Source: a virus. Taken from it: a DNA stretch of 22,994 nt. The notes below the pieces were generated by a model. It was not told the origin of the DNA and did no database searches. It saw only the letters and a program-made list of their open reading frames with translations. The stretch lies in IMG/VR virus record IMGVR_UViG_3300017932_000003, positions 1 through 22,994 of that record. One strand, written 5' to 3'. Shown here one piece after another: positions 570-20,639 of this stretch. Every line of letters begins with the position of its first letter. The stretch's first letter is position 1. The translations under genes and the position numbers were made by a program.

Positions 570-3092
570 TCATCGGCCCGGCTGAATTTGGCCCTGCGGA
601 GCTCCGGCTCCGGGCTGCCCCATGCCTCCCTGCAGGCCGGCTATGAGTGCGTCCAGTGGGTTTTGCTGCCCGCCCTGGCCCGGTTTTGCGCCGGCGGCGG
701 ATCCAATCATCCCGAGCATCGATTGAAGCCCCTGCATAAGCTCCTGAGTCTGGCGCTTCTGTACAAGCGAATTCTGATGCTCGTTGATGTGGTCGCGCAT
801 TTTCGTCATCGCGTCCAAATCGTGATCCGCTTCCGGGCCGTCCCACATCGCCATAATGCGGTTCTGGTGATCCGAGATATGAGCTTCGTCGTTGTCCTGG
901 GGGTGAACGTGAATATCGTTCTTGTGAAGCACGCTGGACCATTCATTCTCCGGCGTCTGCGGAGCAAAGCCCGGCGCCGGCTCTTTGGAATACTTCGTGA
1001 AGTCAAGGCCGAAGGCGTCAAAGACGTCGACCAAAAACCTGTACTGCAAAACCGGATCTTGCATGGCAACGGGGAAGCCGCGCATGAGTTGCATCAATTG
1101 CGCGAGTTCCTGTTTCTTGCCTTCCTTGACCTGGGCGTCATCGGCAAAGGACAAGCTGAAATCATACTTGCCTTGGCGTTCTTTCGCGCCTAACTGAGCC
1201 CAGCCGTTTTGAAGCTCCCCATGCTCAAAAAGCCCCTGAGCGTCTCCGTCTGCGACGCGGAAGAAGTTTTGCTCGCTCCCAAACATGGTCCATTCGTCCC
1301 AAACCATATCAAGGAATTTCTTCAGATCCTCAGACAGCATTCGCATGTCGAGGGCCAATCTTACATCGCCCGCGCCCATGAGCAACCTTTGACCCCCCAG
1401 AGTCCGCGGGGCGTTGGGCTGTTCCATCCCTCGACCCATCGCGTTTTGAGTCAAGCCGGTAAGCATTTCTTGCAGGGAAATGAACATCTGCCAGAGTTCG
1501 GCGAAGGGCTGCAGGTTTGGGTTAATGGCCATCTGCTTGACGCCGGCCGCGTTCGCCACCCAAATAACATCGTACGTTTCGTATTTTCGGTTAGCGACGG
1601 ACTCCCCGACATTCGGCTCGGCAAAAATCGGCGGGGCGATGGAGAAGTCAACGGCCTGGATTACCTTGTTGGCAAGGACCGTCAATTCATTCTCGATGTC
1701 CTGAATCATTTCCATCAGGCCCATCGGCCAGGCCTGCCCGTCGTTCAAAAGCCGCATATCGAAGAATGGCCGCTTATTCGGCGTGTCCGGATAAACTTCG
1801 TCGGCGTCCTGTATTCCGACAATCAACCTCAGTCGATCCGAGTAACGGACTATCAAATTGGATTCGACCATGTATTTACGGATTCCGTCGGTATCGATGA
1901 AAGTCCCGTCATCGGTGGGTTTGCTGGGGGAAGAAAACTCTTGATCTTCTTCGGCGCCTGGCGCCAATCCGGCATTAGCCGGCCGAATCTCCCCGGCCTG
2001 ATCTTCTTTGCCCGGATCGAGGGCAACGGGCGTGCTTGGCGTTTCTTTGTTGAAATCGACGCCGGCCATAGTATCGCCGCCCATAGCGGTTTCGGCGTTC
2101 TCGGCGGGCGGCTGTTCGGCCCAGCGCCGCCAATGTCCATGCCACTCCCAAATTTCAATCTGCTCGCGTTGCATGGTCGTTGACGAATCCCTGAGAATTC
2201 CTTCGGCGAGGTCGTCTTCGATCAAAGACGGGTCTTTCTGAGAATCGCGCTCAAGCCCGAATCGCGCGTAGAGAACAATCTTCTTCCAGTTCTGTTTGAT
2301 GCCCTGATACCAATCGCCCTCGGGATTCTGTTCACCCTCCGGCTCATTGTCCTGAGCGAGCATGTTCGTTGGGGTATCCCAATACCTCCGTATAATCCAT
2401 TCGACGTTTTGAATGTCATCAAAGCCGGTCTTGCCTTCAAGCGAGGCGGGGAAAATAATCTCATCATTTCCGAGGGGCTGAATCTCCGGCCCTTCGTAGT
2501 AAATTTTCCGCTCGGTTTTTCGCTCGCCGGTTATCGGATCGACGGTTGTCTTGTTGTAGAATTTCGTGATCCAGGGAAGATGGGCGAAGGATCGGCCATG
2601 TTTCAGTCTCCGGAGAATCACAAGCGCCAGGGGTTTCATACAGGCCATGTTTTTGAAGACCTGCCATTTCATGGCGAGGCTCACCTTCTTGGCTATCTTG
2701 TCGTCTTGTGGAGTCGCGGGCTCGGCTTCGACCGTTGCGTTCGTTCCAAAGAGGGCATCGATTTCTCGAGCCCACTTCGTTAGAACCAATGCCAGCACAA
2801 ACGGCACTTTGAAGTTTGATTTGCCTTGCTCGCCGCCTTGAAGCCCCACCCAGTTACGCCAGGATTTTTCCTGTTCGGCGCATCGGTCAATTCGGACGTT
2901 ATGATCTTCGATCGCTCGCCAGTAGTCCTGTTGAATCTGGCGCATGAGTGCTTCCATTTCGCGCTTCGAGAATTTGAGCTGGGTGGTCGGCCGGCGCGGT
3001 TTCTGTTGTGTAGGCTGAGGGTCGTTGAATCCTGCGCGGCGCCGGAAGTGGCGGCCGAGCCAATCGAAAGGGTTGAGGGAAGCTATACCCAT
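570..3092 (-). CDS. Portal protein
   Basis: The portal forms the dodecameric ring at one capsid vertex through which DNA is packaged and ejected. This 840-residue protein is long, as in P22-like or other large-portal phages. Features consistent with a portal are the N-terminal region with conserved aromatic/basic residues (about 50-90), a central acidic, proline-rich insertion (about 335-400), a long helical stretch (DIENELTVLANKVIQAVD, about 460-480) and the LTGLTQNAMGRG..APRTLGGQRLL segment (about 555-585), followed by long helices. The C-terminal 60 residues are Gln/Gly/Pro-rich (MLGMIGSAAGAKPGQGGQQN), typical of the low-complexity portal tail. Location one small gene after the large terminase supports the call. 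The ATG at 3092 has only a weak ribosome binding site. The family was assigned by pattern and context, not by alignment. Confidence 0.82.
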   Translation of the reverse strand: MGIASLNPFDWLGRHFRRRAGFNDPQPTQQKPRRPTTQLKFSKREMEALMRQIQQDYWRAIEDHNVRIDRCAEQEKSWRNWVGLQGGEQGKSNFKVPFVLALVLTKWAREIDALFGTNATVEAEPATPQDDKIAKKVSLAMKWQVFKNMACMKPLALVILRRLKHGRSFAHLPWITKFYNKTTVDPITGERKTERKIYYEGPEIQPLGNDEIIFPASLEGKTGFDDIQNVEWIIRRYWDTPTNMLAQDNEPEGEQNPEGDWYQGIKQNWKKIVLYARFGLERDSQKDPSLIEDDLAEGILRDSSTTMQREQIEIWEWHGHWRRWAEQPPAENAETAMGGDTMAGVDFNKETPSTPVALDPGKEDQAGEIRPANAGLAPGAEEDQEFSSPSKPTDDGTFIDTDGIRKYMVESNLIVRYSDRLRLIVGIQDADEVYPDTPNKRPFFDMRLLNDGQAWPMGLMEMIQDIENELTVLANKVIQAVDFSIAPPIFAEPNVGESVANRKYETYDVIWVANAAGVKQMAINPNLQPFAELWQMFISLQEMLTGLTQNAMGRGMEQPNAPRTLGGQRLLMGAGDVRLALDMRMLSEDLKKFLDMVWDEWTMFGSEQNFFRVADGDAQGLFEHGELQNGWAQLGAKERQGKYDFSLSFADDAQVKEGKKQELAQLMQLMRGFPVAMQDPVLQYRFLVDVFDAFGLDFTKYSKEPAPGFAPQTPENEWSSVLHKNDIHVHPQDNDEAHISDHQNRIMAMWDGPEADHDLDAMTKMRDHINEHQNSLVQKRQTQELMQGLQSMLGMIGSAAGAKPGQGGQQNPLDALIAGLQGGMGQPGAGAPQGQIQPGR

Positions 3093-3098
3093 AAAGAC

Positions 3099-3350
3099 TC
3101 AGTAAGAATTGGCGTTCTCCGCAAACCAGGCGAGAAACAGATCCGGCGGCTCCTTAATCAAGGGTTGAATTTTCTGGTCTCGCAAGACAAGACAAACGCA
3201 TGGGTGTCGTGTTTGATAATCGGATTGGTCGACATAAACTGCCTCGCTGGCGACCAATATGTCCCTGATACGGATAAGCATTTTTTGCCCGGCATCATAA
3301 GGGCACTCGGTAGTCAGCACTCCATTTGTCACATCGGGCTTATAGGCCAT
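3099..3350 (-). CDS. Hypothetical protein between terminase and portal
   Basis: This 83-residue protein has three cysteines (ECPYDAG, HPCVCLVL) and a beta-rich middle, ending in the aromatic PPDLFLAWFAENANSY. It is not recognised. It sits 36 bases after the terminase stop and 6 bases before the portal start, so it is almost certainly in the same late transcript. Small genes at this place in other phages include head-completion or portal-associated factors, but nothing in the sequence supports a specific role. Confidence 0.6.
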   Translation of the reverse strand: MAYKPDVTNGVLTTECPYDAGQKMLIRIRDILVASEAVYVDQSDYQTRHPCVCLVLRDQKIQPLIKEPPDLFLAWFAENANSY

Positions 3351-3386
3351 ACTGGCCGTGGAGTTTATTGAATTAGGAATTGCGGG

Positions 3387-5222
3387 TCAAGTGTAGTCGC
3401 CCCGTTTTGACCGCTCAATCGAATTTCGCATCCTCGCCTCACGGATCAACTTTTGCTTTTCGGCCTCACTGATCCCGTTGCCCTGGCCGTACTTTTTCGG
3501 AAGCTCGGCAAGCGGGCCCTTCGGTTTCGTGAGCATAACCGGCGCACGGTCCAGCGCCCAGGACAAGTACATACAGCCAAAAACTAAATCGTCGTGAGTT
3601 CCCTTCTGATGCTCGACCTTCCCGGTCGCGTGCTTCACGAAAGTGTTATGCTCAGAAATCGCCTGCTTTGAGTGCAGGATGATCCCGCGGTTCATCAGGA
3701 ACCTTTCGTGGGTCGCTATCAACGTCGGCCGCGTGTTCGGCCTAATGACGAAACCAACCTCTTTGCGCCGCCGCGCCGTTGCTTCGTCAAGAACCTCATC
3801 GAAGTAAAGGCGGTCTGTCGGGTATCCCAGCCGAATCAACTCGACCAAAACCGCCCTGCCATTGCCTCCGGAGAATTCGGCTTCCACCACCCAATACACC
3901 CAATTGCCCCAGCGCCCGCCATAGTACCATCCGAGATCATACAAATACTGAGCAAATGGTGTAGGTTCAAGGCGCGTGTGCAACTCGGCGACTTGTTCCC
4001 CTAAAGAACGCTCGCCGATTTCAGCCACACACCAATCGGGATCGGGGGTTCCTTCGCCTTCGTTGATGTCAACGCCTTTGGCGACGTCGACGCCTCCAAC
4101 GTACTGTCCGCCAGGCTGAGGGTGCTTCCAGATTGAGAGCTCGCCGTACTGATGCGGGGTAAACATAATTTCCTCGCGCCGAGTCGCGGGATTCAAGGTC
4201 ATGGACAGTTCGCCGCGGTCGTATGGAACATTGGTGGGCATCCAAATGAATAGCTTCGGGTCGAAGCGTTGTCGATCAGAGGCGGCAAAGCTTACTTGCC
4301 AGGAGTGGGGATATTCCTGGTCAAACTTTTTCTTGTCCCCCTTGAACTCTTCGAGCTTTTTCCGCCGCCAATAAAGCTGTTCGAGCTGCAGGTTGTATTG
4401 CTCCTGAAGCGCCCATTCCTCATCAGTGAGGGATTGTTCAAACTTCTCCGGGTCGATTCCTTCAGCGATGAAGTCCCGCCAGTTGTCTTCATCCTCAAAG
4501 CAGCCGGCGAAGAAGAACCGATAATCGCCGATCCCGTCCATCGCATCAATGCAGTCTTTGTAAAAGGCGTTGTGCCCATTAGCCGTCGATTCCTGAAAGA
4601 CCATCGTGCCCGGGTCGTTCGGGATCGTGCCAATGAGCGCCGTCATCAGGCCCCGAATGTTCGGGTAGTAGGCGGCCTCGGAAAGATGAAGGAACCTGAA
4701 GTCAAACGACCGCCCAAAGTCCAAATTCTTCGCGGTCGCAATTTCAACGCTTGAACGGTTTGCCCATTGAATAAAACCGGAATCAACTGAAGCGGAGCGC
4801 CGGGTCACGCGCGGGAGGCCGATTTTTAGATAAGGCTTATAAGTCTGCTCGTACTGGTGATAGTAGCTGAAAAGCTGGCGCGCCGCCTTCTTTTCGTGTG
4901 CAAGTATCAAGGCGGCCTGGCCCTCAAAGAAAGGCGTGCCGTGGAAGATTATCGCCGAGATGATCCGGGAGATTCCTATTCGCCGGGTCTTGTCGATGAT
5001 GAACCGAACAGGCTGGCTTTTCCGAATGCAGTCGTTGACCTCGTTCAAAAATCGAACCTGCGCGGCTTTTAGGTTGAAGGGTACAAGTTGGCCGGCTCGA
5101 TTCTGAAGGGTAAGGGCGGCCGGAATGAATTTGCCGTGATCCCTGAATTCGTTCCATAGATTGAGAGCGCCCGTTATTGTTGCGGGATCAATCGGCGTGT
5201 CAAATTGGACTTGAGATTGCAC
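3387..5222 (-). CDS. terL: Terminase large subunit (packaging ATPase and nuclease)
   Basis: This is the motor that pumps DNA into the prohead and cuts the concatemer. The 611 residues contain both expected halves. ATPase: a Walker A-like DKTRRIGISR at about 77-86 (the atypical K/R-x-x-x-G-x-S form common in TerL), Walker B FRFLHLSEA at about 174-182 with the catalytic glutamate, and coupling motif FQESTANG at about 209-216. RNase H-like nuclease: GGVDVAKG with D379, a glutamate in VVEAEF (447 or 449), and GTHDDLVFG with D544/D545, spaced as in the three-acid active site. Translation appears to start at GTG 5222, since no better in-frame ATG precedes the domain. A promoter-like region and a terminator lie directly upstream (5331-5486). 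The normal small-terminase partner is not adjacent; the best candidate is 9500-10297. Confidence 0.95.
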   Translation of the reverse strand: MQSQVQFDTPIDPATITGALNLWNEFRDHGKFIPAALTLQNRAGQLVPFNLKAAQVRFLNEVNDCIRKSQPVRFIIDKTRRIGISRIISAIIFHGTPFFEGQAALILAHEKKAARQLFSYYHQYEQTYKPYLKIGLPRVTRRSASVDSGFIQWANRSSVEIATAKNLDFGRSFDFRFLHLSEAAYYPNIRGLMTALIGTIPNDPGTMVFQESTANGHNAFYKDCIDAMDGIGDYRFFFAGCFEDEDNWRDFIAEGIDPEKFEQSLTDEEWALQEQYNLQLEQLYWRRKKLEEFKGDKKKFDQEYPHSWQVSFAASDRQRFDPKLFIWMPTNVPYDRGELSMTLNPATRREEIMFTPHQYGELSIWKHPQPGGQYVGGVDVAKGVDINEGEGTPDPDWCVAEIGERSLGEQVAELHTRLEPTPFAQYLYDLGWYYGGRWGNWVYWVVEAEFSGGNGRAVLVELIRLGYPTDRLYFDEVLDEATARRRKEVGFVIRPNTRPTLIATHERFLMNRGIILHSKQAISEHNTFVKHATGKVEHQKGTHDDLVFGCMYLSWALDRAPVMLTKPKGPLAELPKKYGQGNGISEAEKQKLIREARMRNSIERSKRGDYT

Positions 5223-5330
5223 AAGGATGTTTTAGTGAGCGCGCGGTCGTTGGTAACGAGATTCGTTCCATGCTTCATTTCGAATTTCCCAAACAGAGAC
5301 GCCCCCAAGCGTCTGCTCAAACGGTTTTTG

Positions 5331-5357
5331 GAGCGCGCGCTCGCGGTTGATTCTATA
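5331..5357 (-). promoter_or_regulatory. Candidate second terminase promoter with palindrome at its start site
   Basis: On the minus strand an extended -10 element TGCTATAGAAT (hexamer at 5357-5352) lies just after the terminator at 5401-5360; no good -35 is seen. About ten bases downstream, at the expected transcription start, is a perfect 12-base palindrome GAGCGCGCGCTC (5331-5342), placed where a repressor could act. A further hairpin, AGACGC-N6-GCGTCT, is at 5297-5314. The rest of 5223-5330 shows no convincing gene. Confidence 0.35.
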
Positions 5358-5359
5358 GC

Positions 5360-5401
5360 AAGTTCAAAGAAAATCAAAGCCCGGCTGGCAAGACCGGGCT
5401 T
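5360..5401 (-). terminator. Intrinsic terminator
   Basis: On the minus strand AAGCCCGG (5401-5394) and CCGGGCTT (5384-5377) form a perfect eight-base stem with a nine-base loop, followed by the T-rich TGATTTTCTTT. It follows the glycosyltransferase gene and its downstream promoter and precedes the terminase gene. It can end transcripts of the upstream operon, or end a short RNA started at about 5451. Confidence 0.75.
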
Positions 5402-5451
5402 CGATTCCATTCAGCACTCGTAATGCGTCAGTGTGTCCCTCACTGAAGATT
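5365..5451 (-). ncRNA. Candidate small RNA or attenuated leader upstream of terminase
   Basis: A good promoter (5486-5458) would start an RNA near 5451, and an intrinsic terminator would end it near 5365, giving about 87 nucleotides. The stretch has no credible reading frame. It can fold as CAGTG-N7-CACTG (5445-5429), with an overlapping alternative stem UUCAG/CUGAA (5447-5410), followed by the terminator hairpin. It may equally be a 5' leader in which terminator read-through controls terminase expression. Confidence 0.35.
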
Positions 5452-5457
5452 AAGTTG

Positions 5458-5486
5458 ATTATGGCATGGGATCGGGGGCGCGTCAA
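5458..5486 (-). promoter_or_regulatory. Sigma-70-like promoter
   Basis: On the minus strand TTGACG (5486-5481) and CATAAT (5463-5458) each match five of six consensus bases and are separated by exactly 17 bases. The predicted start is near 5451, in the region between the glycosyltransferase and terminase genes. It is the clearest consensus-like promoter in the window. Confidence 0.65.
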
Positions 5487-5519
5487 GGATCAGCGTTTTT
5501 ATCTTGAGTGGTTTGATTC

Positions 5520-6581
5520 TCATACTGGCATATCCTCGTTTCGCTGTCTGAAATACGCTCGAATGCCGTCCCTCAGTTTGATGTCTCTGAGGGTTCCGTG
5601 ATCGACCAAGTGATAAACCCCTTGCCGGTCCCTCTTCAAATCGTGGGTTGGATCAAACTGACAATCAATTAAAATCTGGTCCCTGGTCGCGTACCTCCGG
5701 AATTTTTTCGGCCCGTGAGGATAATGCAGGGCGAGGCCCTTGACGACGCCTACATTCCTTCTGATGAGTCTTTCGGCCCTTTCCTGCCAGGACATCATCG
5801 CGTCAAGAAAATTCTTGTGGTAGCCCTTCCTGATGACGCGCTGCACGCCTCCAATCAACGCAAAGACCGTGTAATAATCGCAGGCGCCCAAAATAGCGGT
5901 GTCGATCAATCCCCCTACCGCGTCCCAGGCATCGCGCCGACAAGCCCAGGCCAGGCCCGGCGCGCCGGGATAGCCGGGCTTCCCGTAAGGGTAGTAGTAG
6001 CCAGCGGCCGGCGGCTTCGTGAAGTCGTACCTTCCGGAAACGTAGTTATCCATAAAGCCGTTTGCGGTGCCGATCAATTCGCCATCCGAATTCAAATCCT
6101 GATACTGACTCCACATCTGCACGAAGGAATAATACTGCAACTGATGGACGGTTTCATCGGCCCAATCGGGTCGAGCAAACAGCACGTCAGAGTCCACCCA
6201 CGCGACATACTTCCAGTCCGCGGGCAGCCTCGACACAGCCAAGTTGATGAGATTCTCTTTGATCCAAAGATCAGTCGAGGGCCAATCAGACCGGAGCTGA
6301 ATGTTGAACGGATCGTTTGGGGTCGTGACAACGAAATCGCGATCTCCGAAGGCTACCTCGATCGTAACAAGCTGAGCCTGATGCCCCGCGTTGACAACCA
6401 TGTCCTTGAAGTCTTCATAGAGCCTCCACCGACTGCGCCAACGAATGGGATTGAAAATTGGCGTGACCACGTAGAGAGGATGGTTATGTCTATCAGGGCG
6501 CTCAAAGAGTCTGTGCGGGCGGTCAATCAGGAGTTGGCGCGAAGGCGCGGGCGGGTTTGCTCGGGGCAGATTCGGTTCCAC
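5520..6581 (-). CDS. Glycosyltransferase, GT-A-like
   Basis: This 353-residue protein resembles phage-encoded glycosyltransferases that move a sugar from a nucleotide donor to an acceptor. The N-terminus has YVVTPIFNPIRWRSR (about 37-51), a Rossmann-like start. AWVDSDVLF at about 127-135 supplies the DxD motif (D130, D132) that binds the metal and nucleotide-sugar. GAPGLAWACRRDAWDAVGG and GACDYYTVFALIG follow as acceptor-site elements, and ALHYPHGPKKFRRY plus a C-terminal YFRQRNED resemble the ends of the same phage family. The start is GTG at 6581, because TAG precedes it in frame. The acceptor is unknown; modified phage DNA, a virion protein or host surface glycan are all possible. It lies at the end of the operon before the terminase control region. 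Confidence 0.8.
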   Translation of the reverse strand: MEPNLPRANPPAPSRQLLIDRPHRLFERPDRHNHPLYVVTPIFNPIRWRSRWRLYEDFKDMVVNAGHQAQLVTIEVAFGDRDFVVTTPNDPFNIQLRSDWPSTDLWIKENLINLAVSRLPADWKYVAWVDSDVLFARPDWADETVHQLQYYSFVQMWSQYQDLNSDGELIGTANGFMDNYVSGRYDFTKPPAAGYYYPYGKPGYPGAPGLAWACRRDAWDAVGGLIDTAILGACDYYTVFALIGGVQRVIRKGYHKNFLDAMMSWQERAERLIRRNVGVVKGLALHYPHGPKKFRRYATRDQILIDCQFDPTHDLKRDRQGVYHLVDHGTLRDIKLRDGIRAYFRQRNEDMPV

Positions 6582-6594
6582 TAGAAATGGCCTT

Positions 6595-6732
6595 TCAAGG
6601 CATCAGCGCGATCAAGAAAATCGGGACCAAAAGTACAGCGGTGAGGGATAGCCAAAAAAGAGTTTTCAAGACTCGGGCGCGGCGGCGCATTGCTTCTATT
6701 CGGGCTAGGACCGCAAAGGAAACGGAGGTCAT
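6595..6732 (-). CDS. Small single-pass membrane protein
   Basis: This 45-residue product begins MTSVSFAVLARIEAMRRRAR and then has one strong hydrophobic helix (about 24-44, TLFWLSLTAVLLVPIFLIAL), ending with proline. The basic stretch before the helix predicts the N-terminus inside the cell. The ATG overlaps the stop of 6729-7268 as ATGA and AAGGAG lies seven bases upstream, so the start is well supported. Size and topology fit a holin, spanin-like or other membrane effector, but no family is recognised. It precedes the glycosyltransferase by 13 bases. Confidence 0.7.
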   Translation of the reverse strand: MTSVSFAVLARIEAMRRRARVLKTLFWLSLTAVLLVPIFLIALMP

Positions 6733-7268
6733 GGGAGCTCCTTCCGCGGCAAATAGGTTCCACGCTCAGGGTGAGGGAGAGCCTGGATGGATCTAGTTTC
6801 CTCAGATGCCGAAGCAACACAGCGCTCATTTTCCCCAGCCAAGTGAAATGCGCGCGTTTTAGCTGTTCCGCGAACGAGGACAAGGTTTACCTCATCGCCG
6901 AGCTTCAGAGTTCCGAAGGCGGCATTTGCGGTCTGGCACCCTAACACGAACCCAACTTGAGTACGACCAATGTGAAGGGATAACGCGAATGCATTTTGCT
7001 GTCCGTCGGGAACAGCATCGACCACGATTTTCAGGGTTTTGTCGCTGGCTGCGGGTAGATGGCTACACAGGCTAAACTCGTCATGAGCGGCTTGGCGTTG
7101 CTGTTCGTATCGCACGTCCTGCTCTTTACGCATCAGCAAAAGTACGTTGTCAAGCTCTTCAAGCGTTTGCGGGATACTAACACCGGCTCTGGCGCATACC
7201 TCTTGAAGATCGGCCCGGCCTTGCCAGTAGGCAAGTTTTTGGTTGTCGTAATGCTGTTCAGTCGGCAT
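6729..7268 (-). CDS. Hypothetical protein
   Basis: This 179-residue soluble protein is not recognised. The N-terminal 75 residues are helical and charged (YWQGRADLQEVCARAGVS, then a coiled-coil-like LDNVLLLMRKEQDVRYEQQRQ). The middle (about 85-150) is beta-rich, with GFVLGCQTANAAFGTLKLG and EVNLVLVRGTAKTRAFHL, and the last 30 residues are polar. The start ATG at 7268 lies just after the stop of the HELLE protein, with GAGGGG upstream, so the two are probably co-expressed. Its stop overlaps the next small membrane gene. Confidence 0.65.
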   Translation of the reverse strand: MPTEQHYDNQKLAYWQGRADLQEVCARAGVSIPQTLEELDNVLLLMRKEQDVRYEQQRQAAHDEFSLCSHLPAASDKTLKIVVDAVPDGQQNAFALSLHIGRTQVGFVLGCQTANAAFGTLKLGDEVNLVLVRGTAKTRAFHLAGENERCVASASEETRSIQALPHPERGTYLPRKELP

Positions 7269-7271
7269 TGT

Positions 7272-8087
7272 TCACCGCCCCTCGTGGAAAAGAGACTTGA
7301 GAATCGGCATTTGACGGGTCTCCGTGTACCCGTGTGTAGGCGAAAAGCTTGGTTCAAATCCAATTTTGGACCGGCGGGCAAGCCGGCTTCCCGCGTGTTT
7401 GGCCGCCATCGCCGGGTTAATCTCGGTCCAGTTTCCCGTTGTCGGGTCGAAGGTCTGCGCGTAGCCCCCGGCCAACACTTGAAAGGACCTGCTCATGTGG
7501 CCCCTGAAATCGTACTTCTCGCCCGGTTCGTGGAAGAGCTCAAACCACGAGGGGAATACGAAATCAGAAACCAAAATACCATCGCCCGGTGGAACAGTTG
7601 GGGGTAACGCGATGGCGTAGGCGTACTGATCGTCTTCGCACGGGTCACAGACTTCGTATGCCCAAAACCCCTGACCAGCCTGGGCGATTAGATTTATCCC
7701 CGGATCGGCCAGCATTTCGAGCAGCTCGTGAGAAGCGCAGACGGTCCAAGATTCGCCGTCGTCCATCGTAGTTTTCGCAAAACATTTCCCGAGCGGCTGA
7801 CCTGTCGGAGTTACGTCGTGATAGCCCAGCGCGTCGGCCTGATCGGAGTTGTCGAGGATCGCCAGAATCCAAGCGTTTGCGGGCGGCCTCTCAGGTACGG
7901 CCGCGCTGCTAGCCTCGACGGCGAGCGAAGGTTTGTAGCCAGGCCAGAATTTTACCGCGTAGTCGTCCCCCCAGGCCGGGAGCCAGTCACGGGAGACCTG
8001 GATTTGCAGGGCCGCGGCAAGCTGCTGGCATTGCAGGCCGGTGATTACGGTTGATTCGTTGACGATTGCGATTTGTGGGTTGCTCAA
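7272..8087 (-). CDS. Putative zincin-like metallopeptidase family protein
   Basis: This 271-residue protein contains ASHELLEMLADPG (H120, E121, E124), then AYEVCDP (E145, D148) and a later VSDFVFPSWFEL (about 170-185). The HExxE arrangement followed by E..CDP resembles a set of uncharacterised bacterial and phage proteins with an HELLE-type motif, and it is close to, but not the same as, the classic HExxH zinc site. A second histidine ligand is not obvious, so catalysis is unproven. The start is taken as TTG at 8087, with AGGA upstream and the first Shine-Dalgarno-like GGGAGG inside a hairpin (8093-8142). There is no signal peptide. It lies among possible lysis genes; a role in peptidoglycan or protein cleavage is only an inference. 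Confidence 0.6.
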   Translation of the reverse strand: MSNPQIAIVNESTVITGLQCQQLAAALQIQVSRDWLPAWGDDYAVKFWPGYKPSLAVEASSAAVPERPPANAWILAILDNSDQADALGYHDVTPTGQPLGKCFAKTTMDDGESWTVCASHELLEMLADPGINLIAQAGQGFWAYEVCDPCEDDQYAYAIALPPTVPPGDGILVSDFVFPSWFELFHEPGEKYDFRGHMSRSFQVLAGGYAQTFDPTTGNWTEINPAMAAKHAGSRLARRSKIGFEPSFSPTHGYTETRQMPILKSLFHEGR

Positions 8088-9499: not shown

Positions 9500-10297
9500 T
9501 CATCGCTTCAACATTCCCACTTCAACCAGAATATTCTGAATCACGCTGAGTTGGATGGTCCCACCTTCCCCAAGCGCTTTCTCGACGGGCCGGTATCGGC
9601 CTTCGAGTTTCGCCATTTGATCAACGGTCTGAAGCAGCGTCGCGGCCGTCTCACTCGCCATCTTGCGTGGGTCGTGAAACTTCGCCGGCGTCTTGCGCCA
9701 GAGTCGACGGTCGGAGCTTGGGAAGGCGGCATTGATTGCATCTTGCAGGGAGCCCTTAACGCGCGTCCAGCGCTCGTTGCCCGACTCTCGAAAATATTCC
9801 TCGTCGCGCTGTTCCCAAATCACCTGGACCTCGGAAGCGTGCGTGTCAAGCGTGTACTTGTCCGGGTTCTCCGGGTCAGTGAGATATTCGTCAATCGCGT
9901 CATAGACTTTAATCGACTGGTCGATGATCCGGTCCATCAGGGACTCAATGGTGCGGTAGCGCGCCAAGTCGATCTTTGCTTGCTCTTCGGCGTCCTCGCC
10001 GGCTAAGACCTTCGCCCGGGCAACCTCCCGGGCCCTTCGGATCTCAGCCGCGGCCGCGGTCATGTGGTTGGCTCGATGGTTTCGGAGAATCTGCGTGCCC
10101 GTGTGGAATTCGGCCCGAACCTCGGAGATTGATTTGACCACGAGGGCCGCTTCAATCTCAGCACGCCTAGCGTCCAAACAAACGCGGCAGAAGCCGCCGG
10201 CTCGCCCGAGTTTACCAGGGACGCGCTTGACCCTGACGTCGGTCGACGGGTGCGGATCGTCGGTTAGAGCAGTGTATGGTTCCGTTAGATTCGGCAT
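9500..10297 (-). CDS. Zinc-finger/helix-turn-helix protein, candidate small terminase
   Basis: This 265-residue protein has an N-terminal CRVC (about 38-41) followed by a helix-turn-helix-like segment (RRAEIEAALVVKSISEVRAE then TGTQILRNH) and HRANH, so two cysteines and two histidines bracket the HTH. This layout occurs in many small phage DNA-binding proteins. Residues about 85-150 are long charged helices (EDAEEQAKIDLARYRTIESL), suited to oligomerisation, and the end is a helical LLQTVDQMAKLEGRYRPVEK with a terminal region containing IQNILVEVG. The HTH head, helical core and C-terminal tail resemble a small terminase that selects phage DNA for packaging. It lies after the DnaB gene, 4 kb from the large terminase, so a replication regulator is the main alternative. 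Confidence 0.5.
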   Translation of the reverse strand: MPNLTEPYTALTDDPHPSTDVRVKRVPGKLGRAGGFCRVCLDARRAEIEAALVVKSISEVRAEFHTGTQILRNHRANHMTAAAAEIRRAREVARAKVLAGEDAEEQAKIDLARYRTIESLMDRIIDQSIKVYDAIDEYLTDPENPDKYTLDTHASEVQVIWEQRDEEYFRESGNERWTRVKGSLQDAINAAFPSSDRRLWRKTPAKFHDPRKMASETAATLLQTVDQMAKLEGRYRPVEKALGEGGTIQLSVIQNILVEVGMLKR

Positions 10298-10305
10298 GGT
10301 TTTGG

Positions 10306-11678
10306 CTAGTACAAATCCGCTTGGTTGGACTCACCTTCGATTTCAGCCTCATTCACGTTGCACATCTGAAATTGCAAGTACTGCCGGTTGAACCGGAGGT
10401 AACAGCTCCCGGTTGGCCCGTTTCGTTGCTTCGCCAAAATGAACTTTACCACGGGGGTCTTACTGTCGCGATGTAGAAAACAAACTAAGTCCGCGTCTTG
10501 TTCGATCGCGCCAGATTCTCGAAGGTCCGACAAATGCGGCCGGCGGTTTTCTTTTTCGATGCCCCGGCTAAGTTGACTGAGAGCGATTACCGGGCAATTC
10601 AGATCCTTTGCCAGCGCCTTCAGGTCGCGGGACACGCCTGCAACTTCCTCTTGGCGGTTCCGGGCGGCCAGAGGATTAGACACGAGTTGCAGGTAGTCTA
10701 CGATTACCAAGTCAATTTGCCCTTGTTCGAGCGCAAGCCGCTGGGCCCTGGCTCGAATCTGCGTCGACTTGAGCGCCGCTGAATCGTCAACCCAAAGTTT
10801 CATCTCCGAGATTCGCCGCCAAGCATCGCTGAGCCGATCCCATTCGTGACGCTCCACGTAGGCGGATCTGAGCCGGTGAGAATCAAGTTGTGTCTGTCCC
10901 GCGAGCGTGCGCGACATCAATTGCTCGGCCGACATCTCGAGGCTGAAGAAGCCGACAACGCGATCAGACTTGGCCGCATACTCTGCAAAGTTCAAAGCGA
11001 GCGCCGTCTTGCCTTGGCTGGGCCTGGCGGCCAGGATAATCAAGTCGGGCGCCTGCCAGCCAGCCGTCAAAGCGTCGATATCCGGAAAACCCGAGCTCAC
11101 CCCCGTGTTTGCCGCATACGAGCCCTGGTGTTGTTCGAAGAGCTGCTCAATTCTGGAAATCACGCGGCCGGTTATTTCGCCCGCAGACTCAAGCCCGCCC
11201 TTCGCCGTTTGCCGGTCGAGGCTCAGAAGCGCCTTCTCGGCCGATGTGATGATTTCCTGGCTTGAATCCTCGGCTTCAATCGCGCGGGCCTGCACCTGGG
11301 CCCCAAAGCGGATCAAAGCGCGAAGCGTCGACTTCTCGCGGAGGATTGGCAGGTACGGCTTCAGTGTGTTCGTCCTGGGAACTCCATCGATCAAGCTGGC
11401 GAGATAAGTAGCGCCGCCGACCTGCTCAAATTCTCCCTCTAGCCTGAGTGCGTCGCTGAGTGTGAGGAAGTCGACAACTTGGCCAGCCTGTGAAAGCTTC
11501 AGCATCGCGCGGTAAATTCTCCGGTGACTCTCGAGGTAAAAATCATCCAAGCGCGCCAAGTCGGATAATTCCGCCAGCACGAGGTTATCGAGCAACACGG
11601 CGCCTAAGACCGATTTTTCAATTTCCACGGCACACGGCATGCCTTTTTCCAAAAACGCATCACCATGAATTTGGTTTT

Positions 11679-11682
<4 letters not shown>
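10306..11682 (-). CDS. dnaB: Replicative DNA helicase, DnaB-like
   Basis: This 458-residue protein is full length for the DnaB family, which unwinds the fork as a hexamer using ATP. The N-terminal primase-interacting domain (about 17-110) contains AVEIEKSVLGAVLLDN and FYLESHRRIYRAM. The RecA-like domain has Walker A AARPSQGKTA (about 218-227; usual GRPxxGKT), FFSLEM (245-250), Walker B LVIVDYLQL (about 325-333) and LSDLRESGAIEQDAD with the arginine-finger region near 395-415. The ATG overlaps the stop of the DUF1376 gene as ATGA, which is typical of a loader/helicase pair. The first Walker A residue is A rather than G, which is tolerated in phage members. Confidence 0.95.
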
Positions 11683-12533
<851 letters not shown>

Positions 12534-12907
12534 GAGCGCCCCCTTTCACACGTATAGGATAGCATCGAAAACCGTCCCCGCTCTGGTAACACAAGCATCC
12601 ACACGGTTTGAAGATTAGGAAGCAAGGCCAGGGGAGCGACCCCCGGCCCGTCGACAGGATGCTTACCTTACCCCCGTGTGAAGGCCCGCCCATCCTATCA
12701 CCCCCCCCTCAGCGAGTCAATAGCCGGTTCAAAATGTCATTTTTGCGATATTTACCCCAGGCGATGTTTAGAATGCGCCAAAGTTTTGTGGAATTCTGGT
12801 ATAGCCAAACGCCCCAAGTGTGGTGGAACGCCCCGTATAGAATTTACACTGTTTGTTGATAACAAAGGGGTTAGGGCCTGGCCTTTCGGTTGCAGTATCG
12901 AAGACGC
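12534..12907. promoter_or_regulatory. Divergent intergenic region with nested inverted repeats
   Basis: This 374-base gap separates the minus-strand replication genes from the plus-strand cassette and contains no convincing gene. It holds three nested inverted repeats: TTCACACG/CGTGTGAA (12545-12552 and 12675-12682), AAGCATCC/GGATGCTT (12593-12600 and 12657-12664), and an inner hairpin GGCCaGGGG-AGCGA-CCCCcGGCC (12626-12648). ATAGGAT/ATCCTAT (12554-12560 and 12692-12698) crosses the outer pair. Two ACGCCCC copies sit near 12810-12835. Both divergent transcripts must begin here, but no clear -35/-10 pair is seen. The position beside the helicase operon also fits a replication origin. Confidence 0.55.
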
Positions 12908-13552
12908 ATGGCAAAGAAACAGAAACGAGACAGAGAGCAGCCCGATTTAGAATACGGCTTTGTGCTGGAGGGAGAGTTGTTTGACCAATCTCCAGAGCCT
13001 CACGCTTATGACTGCGAATGTGAACAATGCCGGTCTGTCTCCCAGATAATCACAGCGAAAAACGTCGATGGGTATATCTGGGGCGACGGGGAAATTGAGG
13101 TGTACACCTCCAACTGTTTGCGAGATTCGCGCTTAAAAACCCAACGGAGGACTCAGATGGCAATGACACCGAATAATATCCAGAAATCACTCTGGCCCTG
13201 GCTCACCCAGAAGGGCCCGACCGCCGGCAACCTGGCCGACCTCGAAATGGCTCAGGAAATCGACCGTATTCTCAGGGACGCGCAGGCCAAAACGTTTGAG
13301 ATGCGCGCGCCCTACTTCGAGGTTGAGAAACAATTCAGGGCCGAGATTGACCGGCTTAGAAAGAAACTCCTGTCGATCAAATGGTACATCGTGAGTGAAG
13401 CTGTCCAGAAGTTCGGGCGGCCGAATCCGCGGCATCCTGATTGCTCGACGTGTTTGACGCAAAGCGTTTTTCCAGGTGGGCCGGACCACGAGCCAAGCGA
13501 GTACTGCAGATCTGGGAAGCGTCCTCACTGCAGCTGCGATTCCTGTTTCTGA
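12908..13552 (+). CDS. Cysteine-rich hypothetical protein, first gene of the plus-strand cassette
   Basis: This 214-residue frame from ATG 12908 (MAKKQKRDREQPD) has cysteine groups DCECEQC (about 36-41) and, at the end, CSTC and CSCDSC, which could bind zinc. The middle is helical, with EIDRILRDAQAKTFEM and FRAEIDRLRKKLLSIKWY. Upstream ATG 12890 would add six residues (MQYRRR). A second ATG at 13157 has a very good GGAGG seven bases before it and would give a 131-residue protein (MAMTPNNIQKSLWPWL), so two products, or a fusion of two genes, are possible. No known family. It is transcribed away from the replication genes. Confidence 0.6.
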   Translation: MAKKQKRDREQPDLEYGFVLEGELFDQSPEPHAYDCECEQCRSVSQIITAKNVDGYIWGDGEIEVYTSNCLRDSRLKTQRRTQMAMTPNNIQKSLWPWLTQKGPTAGNLADLEMAQEIDRILRDAQAKTFEMRAPYFEVEKQFRAEIDRLRKKLLSIKWYIVSEAVQKFGRPNPRHPDCSTCLTQSVFPGGPDHEPSEYCRSGKRPHCSCDSCF

Positions 13553-13586
13553 AGTATGGTATGGTAATTGAAAGGACTTAATCGAT

Positions 13587-13757
13587 ATGAACACTATAGC
13601 GCGTCTTGACGTTTTCGGCCCGGCTGGAATTTGGCTCTACACGATCGACAGCGGATTGATTGACCTGCTGATCGAACGAGCCGACAGCATTTACCGCAAT
13701 CAACCCACCTGGCGGCCAGTGCTGAGCGCGGCCAGCGTAGCCCGAACGGGGAATTGA
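13587..13757 (+). CDS. Small hypothetical protein
   Basis: This 56-residue product runs MNTIARLDVFGPAGIWLYTI and ends VLSAASVARTGN. The ATG has AAAGGA 11 bases upstream. The central DSGLIDLLIERADSIYR is a likely helix. No family is recognised. It is one of the short orphan genes of the plus-strand cassette and is followed by a structured intergenic element (13785-13834). Confidence 0.55.
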   Translation: MNTIARLDVFGPAGIWLYTIDSGLIDLLIERADSIYRNQPTWRPVLSAASVARTGN

Positions 13758-13784
13758 CAGCGCCGTCATACTATTAATTGAAAA

Positions 13785-13834
13785 CCCCGATCCGCGCCGG
13801 GGAGTAGCGCGGGAAACAAGCTGGTGAATCCAGC
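13785..13834 (+). promoter_or_regulatory. Two-hairpin leader before the next cassette gene
   Basis: CCCCG-N8-CGGGG (13785-13802) is followed by GCTGG-TGAAT-CCAGC (13820-13834), then TCTGAAGGGG and the AGGAG-preceded ATG at 13884. The segment GCTGG..AATCCAGC..TCTGAA is shared with the leader at 15789-15828, and CCGGGGAGTAG..GAAAC with the sequence near 16131. No reading frame of note is lost by treating it as non-coding RNA structure. Confidence 0.45.
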
Positions 13835-13883
13835 ACCGGGCAACAGCGATCTGAAGGGGCAACTAAAATCAGGAGATACGATA

Positions 13884-14366
13884 ATGACACAAGAAACTGT
13901 AACCTACGAAGAGATCAGCGAGGAGCTTAACAGCTGCATATCCGCCGACGATATGCAGAAATACGCGCAGTGGCTGTATACTTCCGGTGCCCTAGACGAG
14001 AGCGAGCAGGTATTCAGCGTGACTGGTCCACTCGCTCCATGGAGCCTCCCTGACGCAGCAGAGGAATTCTGGACGGACGGCGCAGATATGCTCGTCATGT
14101 TCCCTGACTGCTCGACCCATGGCCTGAATTGGGCATATTGGGACAACTCCAATAGGAGTTGGAGAGAGCCGAGGGACCGGGATTTCGCGCTTGCTGGTAC
14201 TAAGGGTAGCAAATACGCGGTCGAGCCCGGCACTAAATGCGACCGCTGTCACGAAAAACTGACCGACGATGAGCGCCTCAATAACGAGATCGAAAACGAG
14301 GAGCAAGACGGCAATAGCTCCCTCTGCTCGGAATGTCAGGAGATCGAAGAGTCTCTCACTGATTAG
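13884..14366 (+). CDS. Acidic hypothetical protein with a C-terminal zinc-ribbon-like motif
   Basis: The product has 160 residues. The start ATG 13884 has AGGAG eight bases upstream. The N-terminal half is acidic and helical (YEEISEELNSCISADDMQKY) and the centre holds EEFWTDGADMLVMFPDCSTH and WAYWDNSNRSWREPRDRD. The end has KCDRCHE and SLCSECQE, two CxxC pairs about 32 residues apart, consistent with one zinc ribbon. The strong acidity is typical of DNA-mimic or protein-binding early phage proteins, but that is speculation. No family is recognised. Confidence 0.65.
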   Translation: MTQETVTYEEISEELNSCISADDMQKYAQWLYTSGALDESEQVFSVTGPLAPWSLPDAAEEFWTDGADMLVMFPDCSTHGLNWAYWDNSNRSWREPRDRDFALAGTKGSKYAVEPGTKCDRCHEKLTDDERLNNEIENEEQDGNSSLCSECQEIEESLTD

Positions 14367-14372
14367 TCTTAT

Positions 14373-14443
14373 GGTCCCGCTGTGGCTCCTGATGCTCGCT
14401 CGGCTATTCAGAGCAGCCCGAAAGGGTTTTCCACGGCGGGACC
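14373..14443 (+). promoter_or_regulatory. Three-stem RNA element between cassette genes
   Basis: GGTCCCGCTGTGG (14373-14385) pairs with CCACGGCGGGACC (14431-14443) over 13 bases with one G-U. Inside are TGCTC/GAGCA and CCC-GAAA-GGG, a GNRA tetraloop, giving a three-way junction shape. It starts six bases after a stop codon and ends 23 bases before the next ATG, with AAGGAG in between. There is no U-tract, so it looks like a leader or processing element rather than a terminator. Confidence 0.55.
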
Positions 14444-14466
14444 GCCCATCGAAAGGAGTAGCGAAT

Positions 14467-14712
14467 ATGGAACCCTCTGGACGATTGAGCGATGAAGATA
14501 TCTGCCTCGCGGATCAAGTGCTCGAATTCAGTGATAGTCAGATGTACAACTGGCCGGGCGAATTGTTGGAAGCACTCCGGCTTTACCCCGAGCAGGTTCT
14601 TGAGAGCACGGCGAACGGAAAACTCCGGCGCGTACATCGCATCACGGTCCCCGGCTACTATTATCGCGATACAATAGAGCCTCTGATTCGGCGATTGCCG
14701 GGCGCCAAGTAA
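14467..14712 (+). CDS. Small hypothetical protein
   Basis: The product has 81 residues from ATG 14467, with AAAGGAG ten bases upstream. It has an acidic helical first half (LSDEDICLADQVLEFSDSQ) and a basic second half, including KLRRVHRITVPGYYYRDTIE and ending RRLPGAK. A longer frame begins at 14269 inside the previous gene and is not favoured. No family is recognised. Confidence 0.6.
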   Translation: MEPSGRLSDEDICLADQVLEFSDSQMYNWPGELLEALRLYPEQVLESTANGKLRRVHRITVPGYYYRDTIEPLIRRLPGAK

Positions 14713-14727
14713 CGGCAACAACAGCAA

Positions 14728-14745
14728 CCGCGCCGCCCAGCGCGG
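14728..14745 (+). promoter_or_regulatory. Hairpin before the 14763 gene
   Basis: CCGCGC-CGCCCA-GCGCGG is a perfect six-base stem. It lies between the stop at 14712 and the AAGGAG ribosome binding site of the next gene, so it repeats the layout seen at the other intergenic gaps of this cassette. Confidence 0.5.
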
Positions 14746-14762
14746 GGACAAGGAGATTGAAA

Positions 14763-14954
14763 ATGTCACAAGCACAAGCACTGAGCGTAAAGGAAGCGAA
14801 AGCAGCCGGACTGGTGCTGCCTTACGATCCTGCCCGCGACACTGGCTATGTCGTCATCTGCGGCGGCAGGGTCGAGCAAGACAGTAACGGTCACCCGATT
14901 GTAACCAACGAGTCAGAGGCCTTGGCTCGCGTGGCTGCGCTGGACTGCGATTAA
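14763..14954 (+). CDS. Small hypothetical protein
   Basis: The product has 63 residues, MSQAQALSVKEAKAAGLV then DTGYVVICGGRVEQDSNGHP. A helix, a two-strand element and a final helix (NESEALARVAALDCD) suggest a small compact fold. AAGGAGATTGA precedes the ATG by five bases; the same 11-base string precedes the ATG at 15375. A 23-base repeat begins six bases after the stop. No family is recognised. Confidence 0.6.
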   Translation: MSQAQALSVKEAKAAGLVLPYDPARDTGYVVICGGRVEQDSNGHPIVTNESEALARVAALDCD

Positions 14955-14960
14955 TTTTTT

Positions 14961-14983
14961 CCCGCCGCAGCGGACTCCGCGGA
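14961..14983 (+). repeat. Copy 1 of a 23-base hairpin repeat
   Basis: This sequence and the one at 15189-15211 agree at 21 of 23 bases. Both begin CCCGCC and end CGGACTCCGCGGA, can form CCGC-N4-GCGG, and lie directly after a TAA stop codon. The two differences fall in the four-base loop, so the stem is kept. A T-run (TTTTTT) precedes this copy. Confidence 0.7.
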
Positions 14984-14994
14984 CAGGTTAAACA

Positions 14995-15186
14995 ATGACT
15001 ACTATGCTTAAACATCAACCGAAATCAATCTATATCGACGTTGACACTGATTTGCAACTTACTCCGTTGCTCGCGGCGCTGACCCGTCGCGTGAAAGTCG
15101 GGATGCGAATCTCTCTCAGGAGCGGAATGGTTCTGCAACGCTCGGACGCACGCAGAAGCGGCATAGCTTGGATCACAGTGAAGTAA
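14995..15186 (+). CDS. Small basic hypothetical protein
   Basis: The product has 63 residues, MTTMLKHQPKSIYIDVDTDL, then LLAALTRRVKVGMRISLRSG and a final AWITVK. It is probably beta-rich and basic (many Arg). The ribosome binding site is weak (ACAGG), unlike its neighbours, and ATG 15004 is an alternative start. It is flanked by the two copies of the 23-base repeat. No family is recognised. Confidence 0.5.
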   Translation: MTTMLKHQPKSIYIDVDTDLQLTPLLAALTRRVKVGMRISLRSGMVLQRSDARRSGIAWITVK

Positions 15187-15188
15187 TA

Positions 15189-15211
15189 CCCGCCACGGCG
15201 GACTCCGCGGA
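15189..15211 (+). repeat. Copy 2 of the 23-base hairpin repeat
   Basis: This is the partner of 14961-14983 (21 of 23 identical) and lies two bases after the TAA of the preceding gene. It is followed by the long structured leader 15225-15338. Confidence 0.7.
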
Positions 15212-15224
15212 ACTTCTTAACTTT

Positions 15225-15338
15225 GCTGGTCTGTACGTGACCCGGCCCGACCCTGCGGTGACAACGCGTCAGAGCGAATGGCTTGGGGAGATGTCCCCCT
15301 TGACGTACAGACCGGCCGGCCGCCCCGATGAAGAGGGG
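15225..15338 (+). ncRNA. Long structured leader or small RNA
   Basis: GCTGGTCTGTACGT (15225-15238) and ACGTACAGACCGGC (15303-15316) form a 14-base stem with one G-U pair. The enclosed 64 bases include GGGGA-GATG-TCCCC (15285-15298) and TGAC-AACGC-GTCA (15259-15271); a further CCCC-N8-GGGG follows at 15323-15338. The 188-base gap before the ATG at 15375 otherwise has no gene except a frame that starts inside the previous gene. The layout is like a riboswitch or structured leader, but no known class is recognised. Confidence 0.5.
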
Positions 15339-15374
15339 ATTGAGGAACGAATTCAACGAATAAGGAGATTGATT

Positions 15375-15779
15375 ATGTTTATTGGAGGAATCGTTATCTA
15401 CAGCGCCCAGGCTGAATTGGAGCGCTGGGGCTATCCACGCACCTACAGCGAAGAGGTTGAATATGATCGGGCTATGCAAGAAGCCAGGAGCATTGGCTCG
15501 AATCGGAATCCTCTTCCCCGCAACTTTTCAGAAGAGGGGGCTCGACGGCTGTTCTTTGTCTTGGGGCATAACGGACTTGAACCGTTCAAAACGATGGACG
15601 ACGCGAAAGAGGCATCGGCCTCGAAGTTGGCTCGCTGGAAAAGTGTAGCCAGCACGCCGGACGCGATTGACGAATTCCCGGTGTTCGCCGGGGCTGACCT
15701 ACTGGATAATCCGCCAAAGGAAATCGTGCTGGGCAACGGCAGATACCCGTTCTTGACACACGTATACGAAACCAGATAA
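15375..15779 (+). CDS. Hypothetical protein
   Basis: The product has 134 residues from ATG 15375, with AAGGAG eight bases upstream. It starts MFIGGIVIYSAQAELERWGY, followed by charged helices (EEVEYDRAMQEARSIGS), a LFFVLGHNGLEPFKT strand/loop and a SASKLARWKSVASTP helix. The C-terminal third is beta/loop-rich. An upstream extension to 15168 would run over the structured leader and the preceding gene. The first ten residues are hydrophobic but too short for a membrane helix. No family is recognised. Confidence 0.6.
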   Translation: MFIGGIVIYSAQAELERWGYPRTYSEEVEYDRAMQEARSIGSNRNPLPRNFSEEGARRLFFVLGHNGLEPFKTMDDAKEASASKLARWKSVASTPDAIDEFPVFAGADLLDNPPKEIVLGNGRYPFLTHVYETR

Positions 15780-15788
15780 ATCAAATCG

Positions 15789-15832
15789 CTAGGCTGGAGC
15801 GGAAATCCAGCCACATTCTGAAACCTAGGAGG
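15789..15832 (+). promoter_or_regulatory. Leader that may hide the ribosome binding site
   Basis: CTAGG (15789-15793) can pair with CCTAG (15824-15828), which overlaps the AGGAGG at 15827-15832. Its last two bases also belong to GGCTGG (15792-15797), which can instead pair with CCAGCC (15807-15812). The two pairings compete for the same GG, so the site could be open in one fold and covered in the other. Confidence 0.4.
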
Positions 15833-15839
15833 AACTCAA

Positions 15840-16112
15840 TTGAAAAGAATATTTCTAATCCTTACGCTGGTCGCGCTTTCCATTTGCGCCAGCGCGAACA
15901 CCGTCAACCGAGCTAACCGCGCTCACCGCGCAATGTCGCAAGACGATTGTGCGGACTGCGCGTATAGCGCCGATCACTACGCCTCGGCTTATGAGGCGCT
16001 GTGTGACGTGCGTGGAGGCACTGAGGAAGAGTGCCAGGCAATTTACAATTTTCGATATCAGGACTATTGTATCGAGCATTGTTCTCCATGCGCGGCGTGT
16101 ATCTTGCAATAG
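15840..16112 (+). CDS. Secreted cysteine-rich protein
   Basis: This 90-residue product starts at TTG 15840, supported by a near-perfect AGGAGG seven bases upstream. Residues 1-19 (MKRIFLILTLVALSICASA) form a signal peptide with a basic start, hydrophobic core and an ASA cleavage site; the cysteine at 16 does not fit a lipobox. The mature part has eight cysteines (DDCADC, ALC, EEEC, DYC, EHC, SPC, AAC), suggesting up to four disulfides in the periplasm or outside the cell. It is acidic, with an N-terminal basic run. It is the last gene of the plus-strand cassette. No family is recognised. A role outside the cytoplasm, such as superinfection exclusion or interference with envelope processes, is an inference. 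Confidence 0.65.
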   Translation: MKRIFLILTLVALSICASANTVNRANRAHRAMSQDDCADCAYSADHYASAYEALCDVRGGTEEECQAIYNFRYQDYCIEHCSPCAACILQ

Positions 16113-16174: not shown

Positions 16175-16636
16175 TTATGTGCCGGCTTTCCACTTCTCAG
16201 GATTCCCCCGGGTAATCACCGCCACGATTTCATCCTCTTTCACGATGATATAGTTACAATCGCGCTCAAGTTCAATTTCCGTCCCGGCGAATTTGCCGAG
16301 TAAAACGTGATCTCCTACCTCCAACGGGATCGGAATATGGCCGCCTGTCCCAAGTAGACGCTTGCCGGGCCCCACTGCCAGAACGTCGGCTTCTTGGCCC
16401 TTGGGTTTCCAGACGTCAGGCGTAACAAGCAAGTTGCCAGAATCATAGAACGGCTGAGCCTCGCGCATTCGAACGACAACGCGATCAAGCATCGGCTCGG
16501 GCACGCCAGGCTTGATTACTCCCGGGTGATTGATAGGCGCCCTCGCCTCCGTTTTTTGGGCCGTCCTGCGGCGCTTTGCCATGTGCTCGATCCGTTTGAG
16601 TTGACGCTGCGGTTTCGGCCGTGGGTGAACGCTCAT
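16175..16636 (-). CDS. groES: GroES-like co-chaperonin
   Basis: Co-chaperonins of this fold cap the GroEL chamber; phages such as T4 (gp31) encode their own to fold capsid protein. This 153-residue frame has a basic N-terminal extension (about 1-45), then the Cpn10 pattern: PMLDRVVVRMRE (about 48-59), a segment QPFYDSGNLLVTPDVWKPK where the GroEL-binding mobile loop should be, ADVLAVGPGKRL (about 83-94), VGDHVLLGKFAGTEIELE (about 107-124) and YIIVKEDEIVAVI (about 128-140). The loop region is not the usual GGI sequence, so its GroEL contact is unclear. The ATG overlaps the preceding stop as ATGA. No GroEL is seen in the window, so it would act with the host chaperonin. Confidence 0.8.
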   Translation of the reverse strand: MSVHPRPKPQRQLKRIEHMAKRRRTAQKTEARAPINHPGVIKPGVPEPMLDRVVVRMREAQPFYDSGNLLVTPDVWKPKGQEADVLAVGPGKRLLGTGGHIPIPLEVGDHVLLGKFAGTEIELERDCNYIIVKEDEIVAVITRGNPEKWKAGT

Positions 16637-20462: not shown

Positions 20463-20639
20463 TTAGTCCTTTCCAAGTTTGTCAATCTTCGCCATCAGCG
20501 CCCCAACGTCCGGCGCGTCATCCTCAAAGAGCCAATTCATAAACGCGCGCCCGCACGGTCGACAAATCCATGAACCGAGAAATCTTCGGCAAATCCGCAT
20601 TTGGGCGCATTCCATGCAGCGAGCGTACTTTTCCATCAT
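20463..20639 (-). CDS. Small zinc-finger-like protein
   Basis: The product has 58 residues, MMEKYARCMECAQMRICRRF onward, with C-x2-C, C, then SWICRPCGRAF: a compact four-to-five cysteine zinc ribbon. The C-terminal half is acidic and helical (FEDDAPDVGALMAKIDKLGKD). The first ATG overlaps the YqaJ stop as ATGA, so translation is coupled to the exonuclease. It sits exactly between the exonuclease and the annealase genes, which suggests it acts with that pair, but this is untested. Confidence 0.65.
   Translation of the reverse strand: MMEKYARCMECAQMRICRRFLGSWICRPCGRAFMNWLFEDDAPDVGALMAKIDKLGKD

Follow-up and report, generated by a model that had tools for sequence, protein, structure and literature searches.

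What occupies the gap ahead of the terminase large subunit gene of this virus: a stand-alone small RNA, an attenuated leader of the late genes, or the plain end of the preceding operon? The window, that is, the whole stretch of DNA analysed (an IMG/VR virus record of 22,994 bases, 55% G+C), is from an uncultivated tailed phage. The minus strand holds most of its long genes, and part of the region at about 12.9-16.1 kb looks plus-strand coding from its start-site context. The genes that orient the locus are as follows.

570-3092, minus strand: portal gene
3387-5222, minus strand: terminase large subunit gene (phrog_2, E 7e-23; 611 aa, GTG start)
5520-6581, minus strand: last long gene of the upstream block (353 aa; without family match)
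10306-11682, minus strand: DnaB gene
16175-16636, minus strand: phage-encoded GroES-like co-chaperonin gene
20636-21709, minus strand: YqaJ/RecE-type exonuclease gene

The terminase gene heads the late (terminase-portal) block. Between it and the 353-aa gene lies a gap of 297 bases (5223-5519), which is best explained as the place where the upstream gene block gives way to the late block.

Promoter P1, the terminator and the predicted leader

The gap and its edges carry the following elements.

5523-5440, minus strand: possible ORF of 27 codons, linked to the stop of the preceding gene by an ATGA overlap and crossing P1; unsupported
5486-5458, minus strand: promoter P1, TTGACG-17-CATAAT; its -10 is of the extended type, with TG standing one base ahead of it
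5451-5367, minus strand: predicted short RNA of about 85 nt, in which a hairpin of six pairs close to the 5' end precedes the terminator hairpin
5406-5372, minus strand: intrinsic terminator; stem of 8 perfect pairs, lengthening to 13 if G-U and A-U pairs are counted; T-rich tail TTCTTTGAA
5360-5350, minus strand: possible second promoter P2, TGCTATAGAAT, with TTGATT at 5377 and a 16-base spacing to TAGAAT

The TTGACG-17-CATAAT promoter described in the earlier note is present and matches 10 of 12 positions of a sigma70-type consensus, from which the host's own promoter preferences may differ. In a scored scan of both strands of the whole window, P1 is the top sigma70-type match (score 12). 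Matches at its level are expected at 0.025 per strand of order-1 random sequence, a figure that, like the other chance figures given here, is a guide and not a test, since scores and thresholds were picked after the site was seen. The terminator core, AAGCCCGG-N9-CCGGGCTT, likewise has the eight perfect pairs attributed to it. No other terminator-like site in the window, whichever the strand, is as strong as this hairpin (-22.0 kcal/mol), which has the G+C-rich stem and subsequent T-rich tract of an intrinsic terminator; a generic scanner overlooked it because its loop is 9 nt long. The distance from the P1 -10 to the stem, put at about 50 bases beforehand, measures 51, and both elements are oriented toward the late genes. 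Pairs of this strength occur in none of 120 random strands, and even a weaker, 'mid' class of promoter-terminator pair occurs at 0.008 per random strand. The elements and their order are plainly there, and their pairing is non-random.

We propose that an operon boundary and an attenuated leader coincide in the gap, a reading to which we give an even chance and which is favoured because P1 and the terminator are each the top of their kind, 51 bases apart and facing the late genes. Transcription, termination and any regulation, as we infer them, would proceed as follows. P1 would act as a host-type sigma70 promoter with a transcription start near 5451, and most transcripts would end at the terminator to give an 85-nt leader RNA. 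The same terminator would also block read-through arriving from the upstream genes. Terminase-portal transcription would then come from polymerase that passes the terminator, by leakage or through a phage or host antitermination factor, and/or from P2. The second extended -10 that had been noted after the terminator, TGCTATAGAAT, does lie there, and its -10, TATAGAAT (5357-5350), falls just past the terminator. Only two copies of TATAGAAT exist in the window, both in gene-free gaps, and its position next to the terminator also favours the attenuated-leader reading.

The bracketed stretch had been described as having no credible reading frame, which is mostly right: two frames exist, the 27-codon ORF and a 78-aa ORF (5410-5174) that starts inside the leader, but both are unsupported. 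The former gives no PHROG match and stops 33 bases ahead of the terminator stem.

A promoter and a terminator that bracket a non-coding stretch could instead produce a small RNA, about 85 nt long, that stands alone, acts in trans and pairs with mRNAs of the phage or the host. P1 would then be dispensable for the late genes, since P2 lies past the terminator, and the 93-nt leader stretch folds at -34.1 kcal/mol, better than its shuffles (z -3.81). However, this score is owed mostly to the terminator itself, an Rfam search of the leader gives no match, 27 of 100 random sequences pair with phage gene 5' ends at least as well as the leader does at its best, and the element is absent from the relative L094 described below. 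A complementarity of the leader to the terminase mRNA at 4433-4420 (13/14) was put down to chance, the window having several inverted repeats of that length. We consider such an RNA improbable. Thus, where the earlier note had offered a small RNA or attenuation, the short bracketed transcript is a sound prediction and an attenuated late leader the better half of it, whereas the stand-alone RNA lacks positive evidence. Attenuation by RNA folding, on the other hand, is unlikely at this leader, be it an attenuator or a riboswitch, because no fold competes with the terminator: the best competing pairing reaches -5.4 kcal/mol versus -23.3 kcal/mol for the terminator arms. The lack of a competing fold also weakens the attenuated-leader reading.

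The terminator alone against a second promoter-hairpin pair

The terminator at 5406-5372 also occupies the expected site of an end-of-operon terminator for the upstream block. It is possible, if less probable than an attenuated leader, that it only ends the upstream operon, that the late genes are transcribed from P2 or from a promoter nearer terminase, and that P1 is a chance match or of negligible activity. Other contigs of the same virus, which are 100% identical to the window over their overlaps and extend it on both sides, bear on this point. On one of them a plain operon-end terminator (L177:523-500) has a stem, AGCCCGGGCGTCACGTCCCGGGCT, very similar to that of the 5406-5372 terminator; it comes shortly after a stop codon, and a promoter-like site occurs only beyond it. 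This likeness of sequence supports an operon-end role for the 5406-5372 terminator too, which, if the 27-codon frame were real, would likewise come about 30 bases after a stop. Against a mere operon end, P1 outscores every other promoter match of the window and sits inside a 297-base gap, and the genome contains a second promoter-hairpin pair elsewhere. Also on the minus strand of L177 are a PAPS-reductase-like gene and two giant ORFs of 1423 aa and 2064 aa, the three lying at 2378-6649, 6675-7535 and 9662-15856; the 2064-aa ORF has a ddrB-like ParB domain.

The second pair consists of the following.

12720-12692, minus strand: second-best promoter of the window, TTGACT-17-TAGGAT with TG, before the DUF1376-DnaB operon
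12648-12626, minus strand: second-best terminator-like hairpin of the window, -19.3 kcal/mol, weak T-tract TTGCTTCCT

Its hairpin begins 43 bases after the -10, and the similarity of this pair to P1 and its terminator favours the attenuated leader. The hairpin is not obviously an operon end, because a divergent plus-strand gene region adjoins it upstream. Termination there is less certain, because the T-tract is weak and the longer DUF1376-DnaB leader folds barely better than shuffles (z -1.93). A third good promoter, on a linked contig (L092:9260-9289), has no comparable hairpin after it. It would be a long shot to suppose that the replication and late operons are each controlled by an attenuated leader of similar build (a promoter and, 43-51 bases on, a hairpin or terminator) and released by an unrecognised antitermination factor, in a system unrelated to N, Q and put. 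A 9-mer common to both leaders, TAATCTTCA, was dismissed as chance, as it sits at different places relative to the hairpin. The surrounding stretch, 12534-12910, separates the DUF1376-DnaB operon (minus strand) from the plus-strand gene cluster as a divergent regulatory region; it holds the second pair and a plus-strand TATAGAAT, and the inverted repeats CACACGG/CCGTGTG and AAGCATCC/GGATGCTT flank the hairpin.

The region before terminase in relatives

Conservation of both elements in relatives, named in the earlier note as a check, was found only as identical copies of the same virus: all other IMG/VR contigs with the terminator 25-mer are of this kind. A search for closer relatives gave only identical contigs and one relative with a 64-66% identical terminase in viral_contigs, and none in genome_contigs. 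This sole moderately close relative with upstream sequence (L094) has neither P1 nor the terminator, and its region upstream of terminase differs from that of the window. In many relatives at 32-41% identity, the terminase start overlaps or abuts the preceding gene. Across about 115 relatives, promoter-terminator pairs before terminase are no more frequent than in background sequence (1 in 80 kb versus 9 in 915 kb). Both their absence from L094 and this background rate weaken the attenuated-leader reading.

The single pair found among these relatives belongs to a remote low-G+C phage whose terminase is 28% identical (L020:1591-1750). There, TTGACA-17-TGnTATGAT is followed by 63 bases, a terminator with nine T, TGGTATAAT and, directly after, the terminase gene, an order that appears strikingly similar to the P1-terminator-P2 layout and favours an attenuated leader. 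It was set aside as independent support, because a search for sequences that could show conservation of its leader gave nothing beyond its own contig and remote relatives.

Several start codons have a -10-like, TANNNT-type hexamer exactly 6 bases ahead, which resembles leaderless mRNAs: L094:1713, 2682 and 2997 (TAAACT, TAAAGT and TAAACT) and window positions 5222 and 521 (TAAAAC and TATACT). A leaderless terminase start (TAAAAC 6 bases before GTG 5222; in L094, TAAACT 6 bases before GTG) is suggestive only and was set aside, because most genes here have purine-rich upstream regions.

Comparison with known systems

In the lambdoid paradigm, a late promoter is followed by a terminator that polymerase reads through by means of Q (PMC6606751), and at the IsrK locus one phage promoter yields either a short RNA that ends at a terminator or an mRNA made by read-through (PMC4825925). 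With these precedents, the expectation that a small RNA or attenuation of late expression would be new does not hold. A full-text literature search for this promoter-terminator layout ahead of a terminase gene returned no paper. As a special case of the attenuated leader, a phage protein could load at P1 and carry polymerase past the terminator, as lambda Q does; the layout is the same as that of the late promoter pR' with tR' (PMC6606751), and the predicted start is overlapped by TAATCT (5452-5447), which fits TANNNT, at the place where phages with this control carry a -10-like pause element. However, a match at one place is weak and may be due to chance, and the second leader has no TANNNT at that position. 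Neither PHROGs nor Pfam gave a match to a Q-family or other antiterminator gene among the ORFs scanned from the window and linked contigs, a scan that a diverged protein, or one outside those ORFs, could escape; the absence of a recognised antiterminator protein weakens the attenuated-leader reading in general. The Q binding element of phage 21 consists of 6-bp direct repeats between -35 and -10; the P1 spacer holds no 6-bp direct repeat, although other kinds of element could escape this search. The order of promoter, intrinsic terminator and late genes is thus found here, but two defining features of the Q system are not, and we do not assign the locus to it; regulated Q-type antitermination seems unlikely.

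If transcribed as predicted, the gap would provide a concrete late-control point in an uncultivated phage lineage without a recognised regulator, along with a short RNA that can be tested for. Late leaders of the promoter-terminator type, most familiar in lambdoid phages, would then extend to another group.

Compared with lambdoid pR'-tR'-Q (PMC6606751, PMC4604602), the locus shares a strong sigma70 promoter, a short leader, an intrinsic terminator and late genes beyond it, and possibly the -10-like sequence at the leader start. Unlike that system, it has no recognised Q homologue or Q binding element, a possible second -10 comes right after the terminator, and terminase rather than lysis genes comes first. 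As at IsrK of prophage Gifsy-1 (PMC4825925), one promoter is predicted to serve either a short, terminated transcript or an mRNA that reads through; the targets and downstream genes of IsrK are known and tested, whereas no target or antiterminator gene is recognised here. Like an ordinary phage operon-boundary terminator, the hairpin lies between gene blocks and shares its stem sequence with the one at L177:523-500, but here a strong promoter stands upstream of the terminator and not only downstream.
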